A stretch of DNA of 44,364 nucleotides. It comes from an uncultured Saccharophagus sp. GTDB taxonomy: Bacteria; Pseudomonadota; Gammaproteobacteria; Pseudomonadales; Cellvibrionaceae. The stretch spans positions 1 through 44,364 of the forward strand of contig CAKZUG010000051.1 in NCBI GenBank assembly GCA_937920545.1. The letters run 5' to 3'. The position numbers were made by a program, and so were the translations under genes. The notes below the pieces were generated by a model. It made no database searches and was not told the DNA's origin. It saw only the letters and a list, made by a program, of their open reading frames with translations. This document shows positions 23,397-30,207 of this stretch, one piece after another. The stretch's first letter is position 1. Each line of letters opens with the position of its first letter.

Positions 23397-23711
23397 TTGT
23401 CTATACGTTAGAGATAGTACGATTGCTTCCAGCATTAGTACTTAAGAAAGAAAAAAATAAATTAGCTTAAATTTAGACTTCAATATAGGCATTATACTCA
23501 CGGTAAGCCTTATGTGAGGTGCTGTGTTAACGGCAGCGATAAAAAATTAAACAACATTATCCCTAAAGATTGACTATGCTGATTGCACTCAGTGCATGAC
23601 GGTAAAACCCAAGCATGTAATAATGTATTTTGATATTCACAAAAAATAAACCAGCATGCGGTAAAGTCTTGGGTCCGCATGGATATAACGATTAATGGAT
23701 ATAACACCCCT
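23384..23711. other. Divergent intergenic region msrA / ppx-gppA
   Basis: This 328-bp AT-rich spacer should hold both promoters. A near-perfect palindrome TGCACT-C-AGTGCA sits at 23584-23596. CATGCGG and CCGCATG (23655-23681) form a 7-bp stem with a 13-nt loop whose right arm covers an upstream in-frame ATG at 23679. ATGGATATAAC is repeated at 23679-23689 and 23695-23705. No coding frame is convincing. Confidence 0.6.
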
Positions 23712-25208
23712 ATGAGCAATATTGATACCCACTACAATTTTGAATCGCCCTATTTTGCTGCAATTGACCTAGGCTCAAACAGCTTTCACATGATTATTGT
23801 GCGGATACATGAAGCCAAAATAGAAGTTATTGATCGCGAAAAAGAAATGATTCAAATTGCCAACGGTATTCATTCAGAGGGCCATTTAACAGATGAAGCA
23901 TTTGACAAGGCTATTGCCTGCTTGCAACGTTTTTCTGAACGCCTTCGCGACATCCCCATTAAACAAATCCGTGCAGTTGGGACAAAAACATTACGCTCAG
24001 TTAAAAATGCAAACGCCTTTTTAAAAAAAGCGGAAAAAGCGTTAGGCTCATCCATTCAAATTGTATCGGGCTTTGAAGAAGCACGCTTGGTGTACACTGG
24101 CTTTTCGCATTCGGTAAACCATGATCATAATCAGCGCTTAGTTATCGATATTGGTGGCGGCAGCACAGAGTTTATAGTGGGTGTCGATTACGATCCTCAC
24201 CTGCTTGAAAGCTTAACGTTAGGCTGCGTCATCTTCACTAAGCAATTTTTCACACCACAAGTCAATATGGCCTTAGCTATGAAGCGTGCCTATATTCGTG
24301 CTTGCGGTGAACTTGAAAGCATCCGCAAACCTTATTTGGCAAAAGGTTGGCAGACCGCTCATGGCACGTCGGGCACAATTAAAGCCATTGCCGAGCTGCT
24401 ATCAAATGAGCATGGCGACGCAAAAATAACACGTGAAGCATTAAATACACTTTACAAAACGGTTGCCGATGCGCAAGCATTACCTAACAACTCGCTTAGC
24501 CAGCAACGCATAAATGTGCTGCCTGCAGGCATAGCCATACTTAAAGCTATTTTTGATCAACTAGAGCTAGATGCAATTTTTGCCTCGACAGCGTCTTTAA
24601 AGGAAGGTTTAATTTACGACACTATTGGGCGATTTAGTAACCACGATTCGCGTGAGTCAACAATAAGTAAGTTACAAGAGCAATATAATGTTGACACTAC
24701 CCACGCCGACAACGTGGCCGAACAATCTCAAAGCCTCTGGGAAAAAGTCGACAGACTTCCCATACAGGGCGTATCGCGCACACGTATGCTACGCTGGGCA
24801 GCTAAAGTGCATGAAATTGGCTTAAATATTTCGCACTCAGGCTACCACAACCATGCATATTATATTTTAAAGCACAGTGACTTGGCTGGCTTTGGACGCT
24901 ATGAGCAGTATATTTTATCGTCACTCGTAAGGGCGCACCGAAAAAAAATATCAGCTAAAAGTTTTGACGGTATGGACGAAATAACAAAATCTGCATTTAT
25001 ACCTGTGCTTGCATGCCTGCGTATTGCCGTTGTATTAAATAGAAGACGTGACAAAATTGAACATCTAACACACATCAATGCTAGCGAAAATGCTATCTCG
25101 CTTACTTTTGAATCTGGCTGGCTGCAAAAACAGCCGCTCACCTACTCAAGCCTGCAGCAAGAAATCTTTTATTTATCGCAAGTTGGCTTTGACCTTAAGA
25201 TTAAATAA
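23712..25208 (+). CDS. ppx: Exopolyphosphatase / pppGpp phosphohydrolase (Ppx/GppA family)
   Basis: Hydrolyses terminal phosphate from polyphosphate or converts pppGpp to ppGpp. The actin-like N-terminal domains show AAIDLGSNSFHM (phosphate loop 1), SGFEEARLVYTG with the catalytic Glu, VIDIGGGSTEFIVG (phosphate 2) and GTSGTIKAIAEL. A C-terminal HD-like helical domain (WAAKVHEIGLNISHSGYHNHAYYILKHSDLAGF) gives the full four-domain E. coli-type architecture of about 498 residues. Sequence alone does not separate Ppx from GppA; length slightly favours Ppx. The ATG at 23712 is preferred to one at 23679, which falls in a hairpin. The J-domain gene begins 5 bp after the stop. Confidence 0.9.
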   Translation: MSNIDTHYNFESPYFAAIDLGSNSFHMIIVRIHEAKIEVIDREKEMIQIANGIHSEGHLTDEAFDKAIACLQRFSERLRDIPIKQIRAVGTKTLRSVKNANAFLKKAEKALGSSIQIVSGFEEARLVYTGFSHSVNHDHNQRLVIDIGGGSTEFIVGVDYDPHLLESLTLGCVIFTKQFFTPQVNMALAMKRAYIRACGELESIRKPYLAKGWQTAHGTSGTIKAIAELLSNEHGDAKITREALNTLYKTVADAQALPNNSLSQQRINVLPAGIAILKAIFDQLELDAIFASTASLKEGLIYDTIGRFSNHDSRESTISKLQEQYNVDTTHADNVAEQSQSLWEKVDRLPIQGVSRTRMLRWAAKVHEIGLNISHSGYHNHAYYILKHSDLAGFGRYEQYILSSLVRAHRKKISAKSFDGMDEITKSAFIPVLACLRIAVVLNRRRDKIEHLTHINASENAISLTFESGWLQKQPLTYSSLQQEIFYLSQVGFDLKIK

Positions 25209-25213
25209 TATTT

Positions 25214-25921
25214 ATGATATTACGTCTTGTCTTTATTGTTCTGGTTTTATTTTTAGTTTTTTGGTTGTTGCGCAATATTCGCAAGCAACCCGCACCCAAG
25301 CAAAAAAAAGCTTACTTAAATGCTTTTTTGTGGGGCCTTGTTGGTATCCTTATTATTGGCTTTTTAACAGGTCGCATGCATTGGCTTGGCGCTATTGCAG
25401 CATTTATTATTGGACTGGCCAAGCTAGGGTTTCGGTTTTTACCTTTACTGGGATTCTTAGGAAGTAAAACAGGTATACCTAGTCCAACTTTCACCTCGCC
25501 ATTATTACGTTGTACGCTCAACACTCAGCCTCTGGGCTTATCAGGTGATATTTTATCGGGCGAACACAAAGGTAAATCACTCGATCAACTGAAATCTAGC
25601 GAGATTCAAGCATTACTCCAATTAACACAACAAGCCGATAAAAAAGCGTACTACCTCTTAACCGTTTACCAACAGCTTAACCGTGGCTCAGATAATACAC
25701 AGCAGGAAAATCAGGCTAACTTTGATGATATTTCGGCACCGGATATCCAAGAAGCCGAACAAATTCTGGGGTTAGATAAAGGTTACTCAAAACAAGATAT
25801 CATTAAAGCCCATAAACGGCTGATACAAAAATTACATCCAGACCGTGGTGGAAATGACTACTTAGCCTCACGCGTCAATCTCGCTAAAACACAACTACTA
25901 GATAACCTAAAAAACCATTAA
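25214..25921 (+). CDS. Membrane-anchored J-domain protein (Pam18/Tim14-like)
   Basis: A 235-residue co-chaperone with two or three N-terminal hydrophobic segments (residues 2-20, about 38-54, and 58-85). A linker containing LSGEHKGKSLDQL follows, and then a J domain at the extreme C-terminus, about residues 180-232. The HPD motif that stimulates Hsp70 is H208-P209-D210. The segment ILGLDKGYSKQDIIKAHKRL with HPDRGGNDYLASRVNLAKTQL closely follows the mitochondrial Pam18/Tim14 J domain (ILG...I..AHRR...HPDKGGS.Y.A.KINEAK.LL). The J domain should face the cytoplasm, recruiting DnaK to the membrane. It sits between ppx (5 bp) and the M16 peptidase (22 bp) in an evident operon. Confidence 0.88.
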   Translation: MILRLVFIVLVLFLVFWLLRNIRKQPAPKQKKAYLNAFLWGLVGILIIGFLTGRMHWLGAIAAFIIGLAKLGFRFLPLLGFLGSKTGIPSPTFTSPLLRCTLNTQPLGLSGDILSGEHKGKSLDQLKSSEIQALLQLTQQADKKAYYLLTVYQQLNRGSDNTQQENQANFDDISAPDIQEAEQILGLDKGYSKQDIIKAHKRLIQKLHPDRGGNDYLASRVNLAKTQLLDNLKNH

Positions 25922-25943
25922 CTGGTTTTATTTTGAGGCACAC

Positions 25944-28892
25944 ATGCAAGATACTGTCATAGAAAAAACACAACAACCCGCCGCCGCACATGCAAGCTTT
26001 CGTCTTGACCGTACTCGTTACCTGTCATCACTTAAGGTCGATTTTCAAGAGTTTACACACATCGCTACGGGTGCAAAACATTACCATCTAGCATCGCAAA
26101 GCAATGAGAATGTGTTTTTAGTGGGCTTTAAAACAGTACCCGATAGCGATAATGGTGTTGCGCATATTCTCGAGCACACATCATTATGCGGTAGTAAAAA
26201 ATACCCTGTGCGCGATCCATTTTTTATGATGTCTCGTCGCTCACTTAACACTTTTATGAATGCGTTAACCAGTTCAGACTGGACTGCCTACCCGTTTGCT
26301 AGTATGAACAACAAAGATTTTAATAACTTGTTAGATGTTTATTTGGATGCGGTATTTTTTTCACGCCTAGATCCGCTTGATTTTGCTCAAGAAGGTCACC
26401 GCCTAGAATTCAAAGAGCCGACTAACCCCGAAAGCCCCCTAGAGTTTAAGGGTGTTGTCTACAATGAGATGAAAGGAGCTATGAGTTCTGTCGTGTCTCA
26501 ACTGTGGCATACTCTGACTAAATATTTATACCCATCAAATACCTATCACTACAACAGCGGTGGCGATCCTCAATCAATCCCTGACCTCACTTACGAGCAA
26601 CTACAAACATTTTATCAAAAATATTACCACCCCAGTAATTCATTATTTATGACATTTGGCAATACACCTGCATCAGAACTACAAGCGAAATTCGAGCAAC
26701 AAGCATTGTCTCAGTTTGAGCAATCCGAACAAATTATTGATATTGCAAACACCAAGCGCTACTTTGCCCCCGTACGTGTACAAGAAAGCTACGCCTACGC
26801 GCAACCCGATTACGAAACCAAATCACATGTTGTGGTGGCCTGGCTATTAGGCTCCAGTATTAACACCGAAGAAGCGTTGCGCGTACAATTGATTTCAAGC
26901 TTGCTATTAGATAACAGCGCCTCGCCGTTACTACGCGCGTTGGAATCAACACCTTTAGGCACATCACCGTCGCCTCTATGTGGTCACGATGACTCTCAAA
27001 AAGAAATGACATTTATTGCTGGCCTAGAGGGCTGTAAAGCCAGCGATGCTGATGCAATTGAAGCGCTTATCATTGATACATTGAAAACAGTTGCAGAAGA
27101 CGGTATCCCCCAAGAAGATATTGACGCCGCTTTACACCAGCTAGAACTACATCAAAAAGAAGTGGGCGGTGACAGCTACCCCTACGGCTTACAGTTATTA
27201 ATGTCATCGTTAAGCAGCTGTATTCACGGTGGCGACCCTGTTGCTCAACTTGATCTAGACGCTTCGCTTAAGCAATTGCGTGAAGATATTAAAGATCCTG
27301 CATTTTTATCGCACACAATTAACACGCTATTTTTAAATAATGCTCACCAAGTTAGGCTAACACTTGTTCCTGATGCCGCATTACAAAATAGAGAAGAGCA
27401 AGCCGAAAAAACATTACTCGAAAATATTCAAAAAAACTTAACAGATGAACAAACAGCACAGTTGGTTAGCGATGCACAGGCATTGCTCGATAGACAAGAT
27501 CAAGAAGATGATGAATCACTGCTGCCCAAAGTGACCTTACGAGATGTCCCCTCCAGCGAAAGTGCGGTTAGCGGCGAGAGTGTGTTTATCTCAGGCGATA
27601 TCAAACTAACTCAGTATTCTGCTGGCACGAATGGATTGTGCTATCAGCAGTTTATTTACCCACTTGCAGAACTAACCGATGAGCAAACGGCACTGCTCCC
27701 CATTTACAGTCAATGCATCAGTGAGCTAGGCGTTAACGAGCTTGATTACCTTGCGACACAAAAATGGCAAGCACAAGTCACGGGCGGACTATCTGCTTTT
27801 AGCTCCATTCGCACAGGGCTGAATGATTTATCGAGTCTACAGGGCTACTTTTGCTATTCGGGTAAAGCGTTATCGCAAAATCATACAGCCTTAACCGATA
27901 TTATGAAAACCACTATTGATCACGTTCGCTTTGATGAGCCTGAGCGCATTCAGGATTTAGTTGCTCAAATCAGTGCTTACAAAGAACAAAGCATCACCAG
28001 CAATGGCCATAGCCTTGCTATGACGGCAGCAACAGCACAGTTTAATGCTCAAGCCAAATTAAACCATAGCTGGTCTGGCCTTGAGAGCATACAAGCTATT
28101 AAAGCACTTGATAATGCGTTAAAACAAGAAAACGGCGCTGAAACAGTATTGGCACAATTTCAAAAAATACACACATTAATGACCACACAACAACCGCAGG
28201 TACTTCTTGTAGCCGAACCCAACGCTCTACCCGCAATGGCTAAAACGCTAGACGCCACGTTCGCAGATCATTCAGAGAGTTCTGCACACGCATTTACAAA
28301 AGTTCAGCCTCTTACGCATGTTAAACAAGCGTGGCTAACCCAATCACAAGTTAACTTTTGTGCTAAAGCCTACCCGACTGTTGAGATGAATCACCCAGAT
28401 GCCGCTGCACTGGTCGTATTGGGCGGCTTAATGCGCAACAGCTTTTTACATAAAGCTATTCGCGAACAGGGCGGCGCATACGGTGGAGGTGCCAGTCAAG
28501 ACAGCGGTATTGGTGCATTTAAGTTTTATTCTTACCGTGACCCGCGTTTAGTAGAGACACTCAATGACTTTGACGCTTGCATTGATTGGGCTCTTACAAC
28601 CGAGCACAGCACACAAAAAATTGAAGAAGCTATTTTAGGTGTAATTAGCAGTATCGACCGAACAGAGTCACCGGCAGGCAAAGCAAAGCGGTGTTTTTAT
28701 CAAGACTTACATGACCGTACGCCTGAAACACGTCAACGCTTTAGGGAGCGCGTTTTAAATGTTACCTCTGAGCAACTAAAGTCTGTCACACAAACGTATT
28801 TAAAAGATAAGCCAGCAAGCATTGCGGTTATCTGTGATGTCAGCCAAGCGAACGCGCTAACAGAAGAAGGGTTTGACGTTAACCATATTTAA
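25944..28892 (+). CDS. M16C metallopeptidase, PreP/Cym1 (presequence protease) type
   Basis: A 982-residue zinc peptidase of the insulinase superfamily. The inverted zinc motif H74-I-L-E77-H78 lies in VAHILEHTSLCGSKKYPVRDPF, with the third zinc ligand E175 in VVYNEMKGAM. The SLNTFMNALTSSDWTAYPFAS segment and a C-terminal region with REQGGAYGGGA and FYSYRDPR are typical of the PreP/Cym1 subgroup, which degrades short unfolded peptides within a closed chamber. There is no signal peptide, so it is probably cytoplasmic. GAGG lies 5 nt before the ATG. It is the last gene of the ppx / J-protein operon and is followed by an imperfect hairpin. Confidence 0.94.
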   Translation: MQDTVIEKTQQPAAAHASFRLDRTRYLSSLKVDFQEFTHIATGAKHYHLASQSNENVFLVGFKTVPDSDNGVAHILEHTSLCGSKKYPVRDPFFMMSRRSLNTFMNALTSSDWTAYPFASMNNKDFNNLLDVYLDAVFFSRLDPLDFAQEGHRLEFKEPTNPESPLEFKGVVYNEMKGAMSSVVSQLWHTLTKYLYPSNTYHYNSGGDPQSIPDLTYEQLQTFYQKYYHPSNSLFMTFGNTPASELQAKFEQQALSQFEQSEQIIDIANTKRYFAPVRVQESYAYAQPDYETKSHVVVAWLLGSSINTEEALRVQLISSLLLDNSASPLLRALESTPLGTSPSPLCGHDDSQKEMTFIAGLEGCKASDADAIEALIIDTLKTVAEDGIPQEDIDAALHQLELHQKEVGGDSYPYGLQLLMSSLSSCIHGGDPVAQLDLDASLKQLREDIKDPAFLSHTINTLFLNNAHQVRLTLVPDAALQNREEQAEKTLLENIQKNLTDEQTAQLVSDAQALLDRQDQEDDESLLPKVTLRDVPSSESAVSGESVFISGDIKLTQYSAGTNGLCYQQFIYPLAELTDEQTALLPIYSQCISELGVNELDYLATQKWQAQVTGGLSAFSSIRTGLNDLSSLQGYFCYSGKALSQNHTALTDIMKTTIDHVRFDEPERIQDLVAQISAYKEQSITSNGHSLAMTAATAQFNAQAKLNHSWSGLESIQAIKALDNALKQENGAETVLAQFQKIHTLMTTQQPQVLLVAEPNALPAMAKTLDATFADHSESSAHAFTKVQPLTHVKQAWLTQSQVNFCAKAYPTVEMNHPDAAALVVLGGLMRNSFLHKAIREQGGAYGGGASQDSGIGAFKFYSYRDPRLVETLNDFDACIDWALTTEHSTQKIEEAILGVISSIDRTESPAGKAKRCFYQDLHDRTPETRQRFRERVLNVTSEQLKSVTQTYLKDKPASIAVICDVSQANALTEEGFDVNHI

Positions 28893-29671: not shown

Positions 29672-29697
29672 ATCCCTTATATTGGTATCTAAGGGAT
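29672..29697. terminator. Hairpin between converging genes (weak bidirectional terminator)
   Basis: ATCCCTTA and TAAGGGAT form an 8-bp stem over a 10-nt loop between the unknown plus-strand gene and the rhodanese gene. It covers the rhodanese stop codon. There is no clean T run on either strand, so terminator activity is uncertain. Confidence 0.4.
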
Positions 29698-30207
29698 ATA
29701 ACGAATAAGGCTTTTATCTTTAATGAGCCTCCCCCAAAAATCATTATAGGGATGCACCCCACTGCCCTGAATGTCTCGACCCTGATTGGCCCACATAAAT
29801 AGTCCACCTTTAAGGTTTACCATGTCATGGGCGTTATGTAGCTGGTTAATTTTTTCAATATAAGCTGACGAGCGATACCCAACAGAGCAGTAAAAAACGG
29901 CCTTTTTATCTTTTAATATGTGACCATACGCTTGCAAAAAATTGTTGGCTGACATGCTGGGGGTAATATGAATAGCTTGGCGAATATGACTAACGCTGTA
30001 TTCATCATGTTCGCGTATATCAAAAATAACCGTATCGCCTAAATTAAGTTGTGAATACTCATCAGGACTGATGTGCCTAACGCTAGAAAATTCATTTTCA
30101 ATTTTCACGTGCAAACGATGCAGATTAGGTTTGTATAACCAGAGGCTAACTAGCACAATACTTGTTATAATAACGATGGCTAAAATAATGATTGAGATTT
30201 TTTGCAT
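29689..30207 (-). CDS. Membrane-anchored rhodanese-like protein
   Basis: A 172-residue protein with one N-terminal transmembrane helix (residues 3-24) and a single rhodanese domain, probably periplasmic. Conserved rhodanese elements are VIFDIREHDEYSVSHIRQAIHI (the DxR..EY..GHI-type strand) and the active-site loop CSVGYRSS with the sulphur-accepting C107. A late NLKGGLFMWANQGR segment matches the end of the fold. Rhodaneses transfer sulphane sulphur; the acceptor here is unknown. The domain end HPYNDFWGRLI is also seen in other rhodanese-like proteins with N-terminal anchors. It is transcribed towards the unknown gene and divergent from the GH9 gene. Confidence 0.87.
   Translation of the reverse strand: MQKISIIILAIVIITSIVLVSLWLYKPNLHRLHVKIENEFSSVRHISPDEYSQLNLGDTVIFDIREHDEYSVSHIRQAIHITPSMSANNFLQAYGHILKDKKAVFYCSVGYRSSAYIEKINQLHNAHDMVNLKGGLFMWANQGRDIQGSGVHPYNDFWGRLIKDKSLIRYIP

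Follow-up and report, generated by a model that had tools for sequence, protein, structure and literature searches.

A Pam18/Tim14-type J protein of the Cellvibrionaceae, the probable loss of its VWA partner, and a PreP-type peptidase as its probably independent neighbor

Introduction

In a 44,364-nucleotide stretch from an uncultured Saccharophagus sp. (GenBank assembly GCA_937920545.1, contig CAKZUG010000051.1, positions 1 to 44,364; hereafter the window), a gene for a membrane-tethered J protein resembling Pam18/Tim14 is followed directly by one for a PreP/Cym1-type metallopeptidase of the M16C family. This arrangement recalls the import-motor J protein and the presequence protease of mitochondria and raises the question of whether the two bacterial genes constitute a functional unit; an original prediction, made from the sequence alone, had picked them as the best candidate in the window for an undescribed one. 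The survey reported here leads elsewhere. We consider it very likely that the J protein is a Pam18-type protein whose VWA-domain partner has been lost in the Cellvibrionaceae and that the PreP-type peptidase is an independent neighbor; the likeness to the mitochondrial pair is then most likely an accident of how genes are ordered within a single family. The pair of VWA and J genes is a better lead than that of J and M16C.

The J domain is of the Pam18/Tim14 type

According to prediction, the J protein carries a membrane helix ahead of its C-terminal J domain (residues 178 to 235), which bears the HPD motif and contains HPDRGGNDYLASRVNLAK. Its AlphaFold2 model (34 sequences, mean predicted local distance difference test score of 87.4) starts with three helices, continues with a small beta/alpha middle domain, and ends in a J domain of three helices, in keeping with the C-terminal, membrane-tethered J domain originally predicted. 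A basic loop at residues 21 to 36 (five K/R) suggests that the N terminus would lie outside and the J domain in the cytoplasm. The Pfam DnaJ match is borderline (25.4 bits, cutoff 27.8), with DnaJ listed just above threshold in a genome-wide Pfam search (27.5; 28 with neighbors), Pam16 grazes the protein below its cutoff, and two matches in PHROGs (1.4e-7 and 2.9e-5) are both to function-unassigned families.

A profile built from 22 relatives of the J protein recovers yeast Tim14 at 2.9e-15 (59.6 bits, profile positions 179 to 232), and the best DnaJ ranks next at 9e-7 (31.8 bits, positions 183 to 215). Eukaryotic Pam18 proteins (yeast Tim14 and human DNAJC19 and DNAJC15, the two human sequences being provisional) score 66.5 to 79.1 bits on the profile of the bacterial long J proteins, versus 12.5 to 19.7 bits on a DnaJ profile and 22.4 to 24.0 bits on one made from five proteins provisionally labeled DjlA. 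In a J-domain tree of 80 rows, 47 long J proteins, 13 short ones (described below), and the three eukaryotic Pam18 proteins form one group with support of 99/96; this group also holds a single protein from another class (L242 of genome G422) that was provisionally labeled DjlA, and DnaJ and the other rows, including the remaining provisional DjlA proteins, lie outside. A clade of the 63 rows lacking L242 is not rejected by the approximately unbiased test (p 0.50). In a Foldseek search with the model, Tim14 (2guz_A) is second in the list, superposing with a root mean square deviation of 1.6 A and a TM score of 0.76 by target. Two points temper this kinship, namely, that the Foldseek E values are weak (0.024 for Tim14 and no match under 0.001) and that the tree spans only 58 columns. 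Taking profile scores, tree, and predicted-fold superposition together, the assignment to the Pam18/Tim14 type, apart from DnaJ and DjlA, holds as far as the J domain is concerned. The fit to Pam18 that had been read from the motif is thereby upheld, and the phylogeny does not place the domain with DjlA/CbpA.

Like Pam18/Tim14 (DNAJC19 and DNAJC15), the window's protein is membrane tethered and ends in its J domain, which shows HPD(K/R)GG...N.AK and has nothing behind it; the sequence match covers the full J domain and the superposition is good. Pam18 has a single membrane helix and no middle domain, whereas the window's protein is bacterial and has three predicted helices and a middle domain. 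A relation between Pam18 and the Alphaproteobacteria is already in print, in that the ancestral metamonad Pam18 group is assigned to this class in a recent report (PMC13428257, 2026).

A VWA protein is the steady gene partner of the long J protein

We clustered the proteins of open reading frames (ORFs) from 60 regions around J or M16C genes (J anchored in 51) and 20 regions around M16C genes (anchored in 19). Among the clusters around J, in which not every neighbor was annotated, only one recurs widely across families. Its members, of about 230 to 320 residues, occur in 21 loci of Gammaproteobacteria and other classes, and their genes lie directly upstream of the J gene in all 19 of these loci in which J was anchored. 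Three members that were scanned gave no Pfam or NCBIfam match over the cutoff, VWA_2 being found below threshold in two of them. One member was modeled with AlphaFold2; the model shows a VWA fold, and its best PDB match is 8j4a_B, from an entry for the SAP05-AtRPN10 complex (E 2.9e-8). The invariant blocks of the family, D-A-T-x-S-R, T-Q-I, and D-x-x-E-E, look like an intact metal-ion-dependent adhesion site (MIDAS). By eye, the VWA protein has neither a membrane helix nor a signal sequence.

A profile of 17 VWA members matches 7 of 58 relatives of the window's genome, 24 of 232 genomes sampled from the class, and 23 of 249 from the phylum, for 53 distinct genomes. In 52 of these, drawn from the Gammaproteobacteria and Alphaproteobacteria, a long J gene lies 3' of the VWA gene on the same strand, at a distance of 2 to 125 bp in 50 genomes and of 430 bp and 1,292 bp in G056 and G086; the sole exception (G399) has both genes, set apart. 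Long J proteins also occur without VWA, in 16 of the genomes sampled from the class and the phylum. The gap is 33 bp in Azospirillum brasilense, and the genes overlap by 1 bp in Microvirga sp. VF16; in both, they are annotated as "VWA domain-containing protein" and "DnaJ domain-containing protein." Among named gammaproteobacterial loci, for which we took the best 80 of 586 confirmed matches (J ORF recovered in 78), VWA stands upstream in 36, including those of Halieaceae, Amphritea, and Marinobacter. In the open-access literature searched for such a pair, no description of it was found. MoxR AAA+/VWA pairs (such as NorQ-NorD and RavA-ViaA) are likewise described as joining a VWA protein to a chaperone-type partner, which in the present case is instead a Pam18-type J protein.

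Copies of the VWA gene are also carried on large plasmids of Azospirillum, Methylobacterium, and Microvirga, with those of Microvirga sp. VF16 on two different plasmids (NZ_CP069356.1 and NZ_CP069359.1). Around J genes of other classes, we additionally observed a cluster represented by a MipZ ATPase (Pfam 4.6e-111; loci L176, L178, L179, and L186) and one represented by a D-Ala-D-Ala carboxypeptidase with a SPOR domain (L176, L178, L180, L182, L185, and L187). It is possible that these neighbors reflect a cell-division or envelope context of the J protein.

Absence of VWA and divergence of the middle domain in the Cellvibrionaceae

The family of the window, in which we include Teredinibacter, Saccharophagus, and Agaribacterium following the NCBI taxonomy, departs from this pattern: 36 of its 37 genomes have no VWA match. 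The single genome with one (G027) has VWA 18 bp upstream of J and M16C 2.4 kb downstream. The window's own genome, a 2.97-Mb draft that is 84% complete, gave no VWA match in the profile search, and ppx stands upstream of J instead.

A loss of VWA may have left a trace in the J protein itself. We scored middle domains against a profile built from 19 VWA-bearing J proteins from outside the Gammaproteobacteria. On it, 27 VWA-bearing gammaproteobacterial J proteins reach a median of 89.7 bits, as against 40.6 bits for 26 VWA-less ones (p 2e-9); the 18 Cellvibrionaceae among the latter have a median of 34.4 bits, and the VWA-bearing G027 scores 94.6. The 27 come from 33 VWA-bearing gammaproteobacterial genomes, with G041, G051, G056, G086, G110, and G216 left out, as was the G399 locus (L139), with its VWA elsewhere in the genome. 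In the named loci (33 VWA-bearing versus 36 VWA-less), the middle-domain medians are 83.4 and 53.6, and those of the J domain are 85.0 and 89.2. Several results pull the other way. J-domain scores differ as well, if less so (94.1 in VWA-bearing versus 82.7 in VWA-less proteins, p 1e-4); eight VWA-less gammaproteobacterial proteins from outside the family score 53.8 to 81.7 on the middle domain, four of them at 73 to 82; and six VWA-less proteins from outside the Gammaproteobacteria have a median of 99.5 bits. Further, a tree calculated without the middle columns yields one supported independent pair with and without VWA, and because there is just one, the contrast is only suggestive of a link between the absence of VWA in the Cellvibrionaceae and a diverged or missing middle domain.

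Several family members encode short J proteins (157 to 209 residues) that match the query in the N-terminal part and the J domain and not in between. This layout, a membrane part plus a J domain, is closer to that of eukaryotic Pam18. One genome of another family (G054) possesses both a long and a short copy.

The upstream neighbor ppx

Of the 21 family loci with J anchored, 13 (L038 to L042, L044, L046, L047, L053, L054, and L188 to L190) have ppx as the next gene upstream of J, as does the window, and in L039, L041, and L054 the two genes overlap or touch. One could therefore propose a lineage-specific ppx-J operon, in which the close partner of the J protein in the Cellvibrionaceae is ppx, with its role in polyphosphate metabolism, and not M16C. 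We regard this as unlikely. In the loci of other families compared, ppx is not beside J; the eight ppx-bearing loci among the best 80 of the 586 named matches all bear Cellvibrionaceae-type names, their family placement having been partly checked; and a shared promoter alone would account for the arrangement. Since the association is seen only in the Cellvibrionaceae, we retain it as an alternative to the loss of a VWA partner and not in its place.

The PreP-type peptidase and its linkage to the J gene

The peptidase matches human PreP at 6e-156, with the Pfam domains M16C_assoc and PreP_C, and the insulinase-family zinc metalloprotease 2fge, which we take to be plant PreP, at 1.1e-137 over residues 18 to 972. 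All of the PreP/Cym1 hallmarks are present (HxxEH, the distal Glu, the R/Y pair in the C-terminal half, and M16C_assoc), and HILEH, E175, and R840/Y846 are presumably the catalytic positions of a PreP-type enzyme. These features support a predicted PreP-type M16C peptidase, which shares the M16C architecture with M16C_assoc and PreP_C with PreP/Cym1/PITRM1 and differs in being bacterial and without an import context. As had been predicted, HILEH (residues 74 to 78) is intact and, judged by eye and with no predictor used, there is no N-terminal signal sequence. Relatives of PreP in bacteria are already known, mainly from Terrabacteria and Proteobacteria (PMC9291397).

One may posit that the two proteins form a pair in which J recruits DnaK at the inner membrane and M16C clears the resulting peptides, in parallel to the import motor and presequence clean-up of mitochondria. 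In the window, the genes are directly adjacent and codirectional. Of the 58 relatives searched, 44 have both a specific J match and an M16C match; 35 of these are Cellvibrionaceae, and in 25 of the 35 the J gene precedes a codirectional M16C gene at no more than 10 kb. The tight spacing makes it likely that ppx, J, and M16C are cotranscribed in the window. In the class, excluding the window, co-occurrence of J and M16C exceeds expectation (26 genomes, odds ratio 3.1, p 0.001, uncorrected for kinship). Finally, most of the negatives presented below are drafts with the two genes on different contigs, such that an adjacency across a contig break could in principle have been missed. These observations count against independence of the two genes, and we nevertheless find a functional pair quite improbable.

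The distribution is the first obstacle. The remaining nine genomes of the 44 come from the order but from outside the family; none was found to link the two genes within 10 kb, and eight have them on different contigs. The class sample of 232 genomes yielded J in 55 cases (threshold E 1e-12, with some 20 of the matches made through the J domain only) and M16C in 68. Both are present in 27 genomes, one of which is that of the window; in the 26 others no adjacency was found, 24 holding the genes on different contigs and two on one contig at 146 and 207 kb. In the 249 genomes of the phylum, all seven with both belong to the order of the window, and outside the class 59 genomes yielded J, in some cases through the J domain only, another 25 yielded M16C, and none yielded both. 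The class co-occurrence was consequently not accepted as support for a unit, being uncorrected for kinship and not seen outside the class. M16C is in the flanks of only six of the best 80 of the 586 named matches (Agaribacterium haliotis, Teredinibacter sp. ISS155, a Cellvibrionaceae metagenome-assembled genome, bacterium 005FR1, Pseudomaricurvus alkylphenolicus, and Aestuariicella albida), and around M16C itself no neighbor cluster recurs in more than 2 of the 19 anchored regions.

The second obstacle is what stands between the genes within the family. J and M16C are less than 200 bp apart in 6 of the 35 genomes and on different contigs in 5. Of 15 family loci with both genes anchored, nine have an opposed gene in between, which is cmoM-like in seven; three also contain a cluster represented by a DTW-domain protein. 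A genome of the window's own genus (G001) has 1.4 kb between J and M16C, holding an opposed methyltransferase gene (CmoM-like by eye, methyltransferase by Pfam); the cmoM-like protein gave no match in the window's own genome, itself an incomplete draft. In the tree, the window's J protein groups with those of G007, G008, G013, and G032, all from tightly adjacent pairs, and that of G001 is just outside (99/87, 99/80), consistent with one loss having brought J and M16C together. G022 has a tight adjacency with a short J protein and is separate in the tree. On this distribution and the opposed genes in between, we rejected a functional unit of J and M16C; most likely, the two genes stand side by side by chance within this one family. 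The undescribed unit of the original prediction is accordingly not borne out: in the genomes sampled, we saw linkage in Cellvibrionaceae-type genomes alone, tight in a few of them and with no counterpart in distant genera, and outside the family J has another recurrent neighbor.

We find it scarcely credible, finally, that the protein is an ordinary DjlA/CbpA-like J protein of type III whose likeness to Pam18 is accidental. DjlA, a membrane-tethered bacterial type III J protein as well, is the top NCBIfam match, but at 29.4 bits it is far below the cutoff of 162. Profiles and a tree (window J apart from the provisional DjlA rows) favor Tim14/Pam18, and the predicted J domain superposes well on Tim14; we accordingly rejected such a kinship.

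Proposed roles and order of events

By analogy, the J protein would be a type III J protein tethered to the inner membrane that recruits DnaK to its cytoplasmic face and triggers the ATPase for clients there. Across the family of J proteins spread through the Gammaproteobacteria and Alphaproteobacteria, VWA and J would work together, with the middle domain as the likely contact. In the Cellvibrionaceae, we infer that the VWA gene was lost, that ppx came to stand ahead of J, and that the middle domain either drifted or vanished, presumably in this order; in the lineage of the window, J would act without VWA. The PreP-type peptidase is probably an independent cytosolic oligopeptidase that degrades peptides and is just nearby in the family, having become the immediate neighbor of J mainly in one subgroup, probably upon loss of intervening genes (cmoM-like in relatives).

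We also put forward, tentatively and with more doubt than conviction, that the bacterial relatives of Pam18 are one half of a two-protein module, in which a VWA protein with an apparently complete MIDAS docks, at the inner membrane, on the middle domain of J and passes clients on to DnaK. The motor subunit of mitochondria would descend from such a J protein after loss of VWA and the middle domain, and the Cellvibrionaceae would represent a parallel loss, with VWA gone, the middle domain diverged, and J short in several genomes. A VWA partner conserved in cultivable Alphaproteobacteria and Gammaproteobacteria would open the role of Pam18's bacterial forerunner to direct testing.

Layout of the locus

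The coordinates (Table 1) agree with the original description of adjoining ppx, J, and M16C genes, which are all codirectional and separated by 5 and 22 bp, respectively. A scan for promoters and terminators returned no more matches than in shuffled sequence.

Table 1. Coordinates of features in the window and, where a locus is named, in related loci
Feature	Location	Strand	Remarks
ppx/gppA-type exopolyphosphatase	23679-25208	+	Ppx-GppA profile match 1e-68; stop 5 bp ahead of J gene
Pam18/Tim14-type membrane-tethered J protein, 235 aa	25214-25921	+	
Three predicted membrane helices, aa 2-23, 27-52, 55-75	25217-25438	+	Kyte-Doolittle windows, AlphaFold2
Middle beta/alpha domain, about aa 92-156	25487-25681	+	Diverged in window; well preserved in homologues downstream of VWA gene
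J domain, aa 178-235	25745-25918	+	HPD 25835-25843
J-M16C intergenic gap, 22 bp	25922-25943		
PreP-type M16C metallopeptidase, 982 aa	25944-28892	+	
HILEH, aa 74-78	26163-26177	+	
E175	26466-26468	+	
R840	28461-28463	+	
Y846	28479-28481	+	
Downstream ORF, 198 aa	29041-29637	+	
Rhodanese-like protein	29689-30207	-	
Short J protein	L049 7655-8128	-	
Short J protein	L053 3992-4537	+	
Short J protein	L056 3828-4349	-	
Short J protein	L057 3708-4184	-	
Short J protein	L172 3415-3918	+	
VWA family member	L173 4448-5146	-	
VWA family member	L176 3011-3754	+	
MipZ ATPase	L176 766-1689	+	
D-Ala-D-Ala carboxypeptidase with SPOR domain	L180 4620-6326	-	

Downstream of M16C, the window continues with an ORF that has no Pfam match at E 0.1, followed in the opposed orientation by the gene for a rhodanese-like protein with a hydrophobic N terminus.

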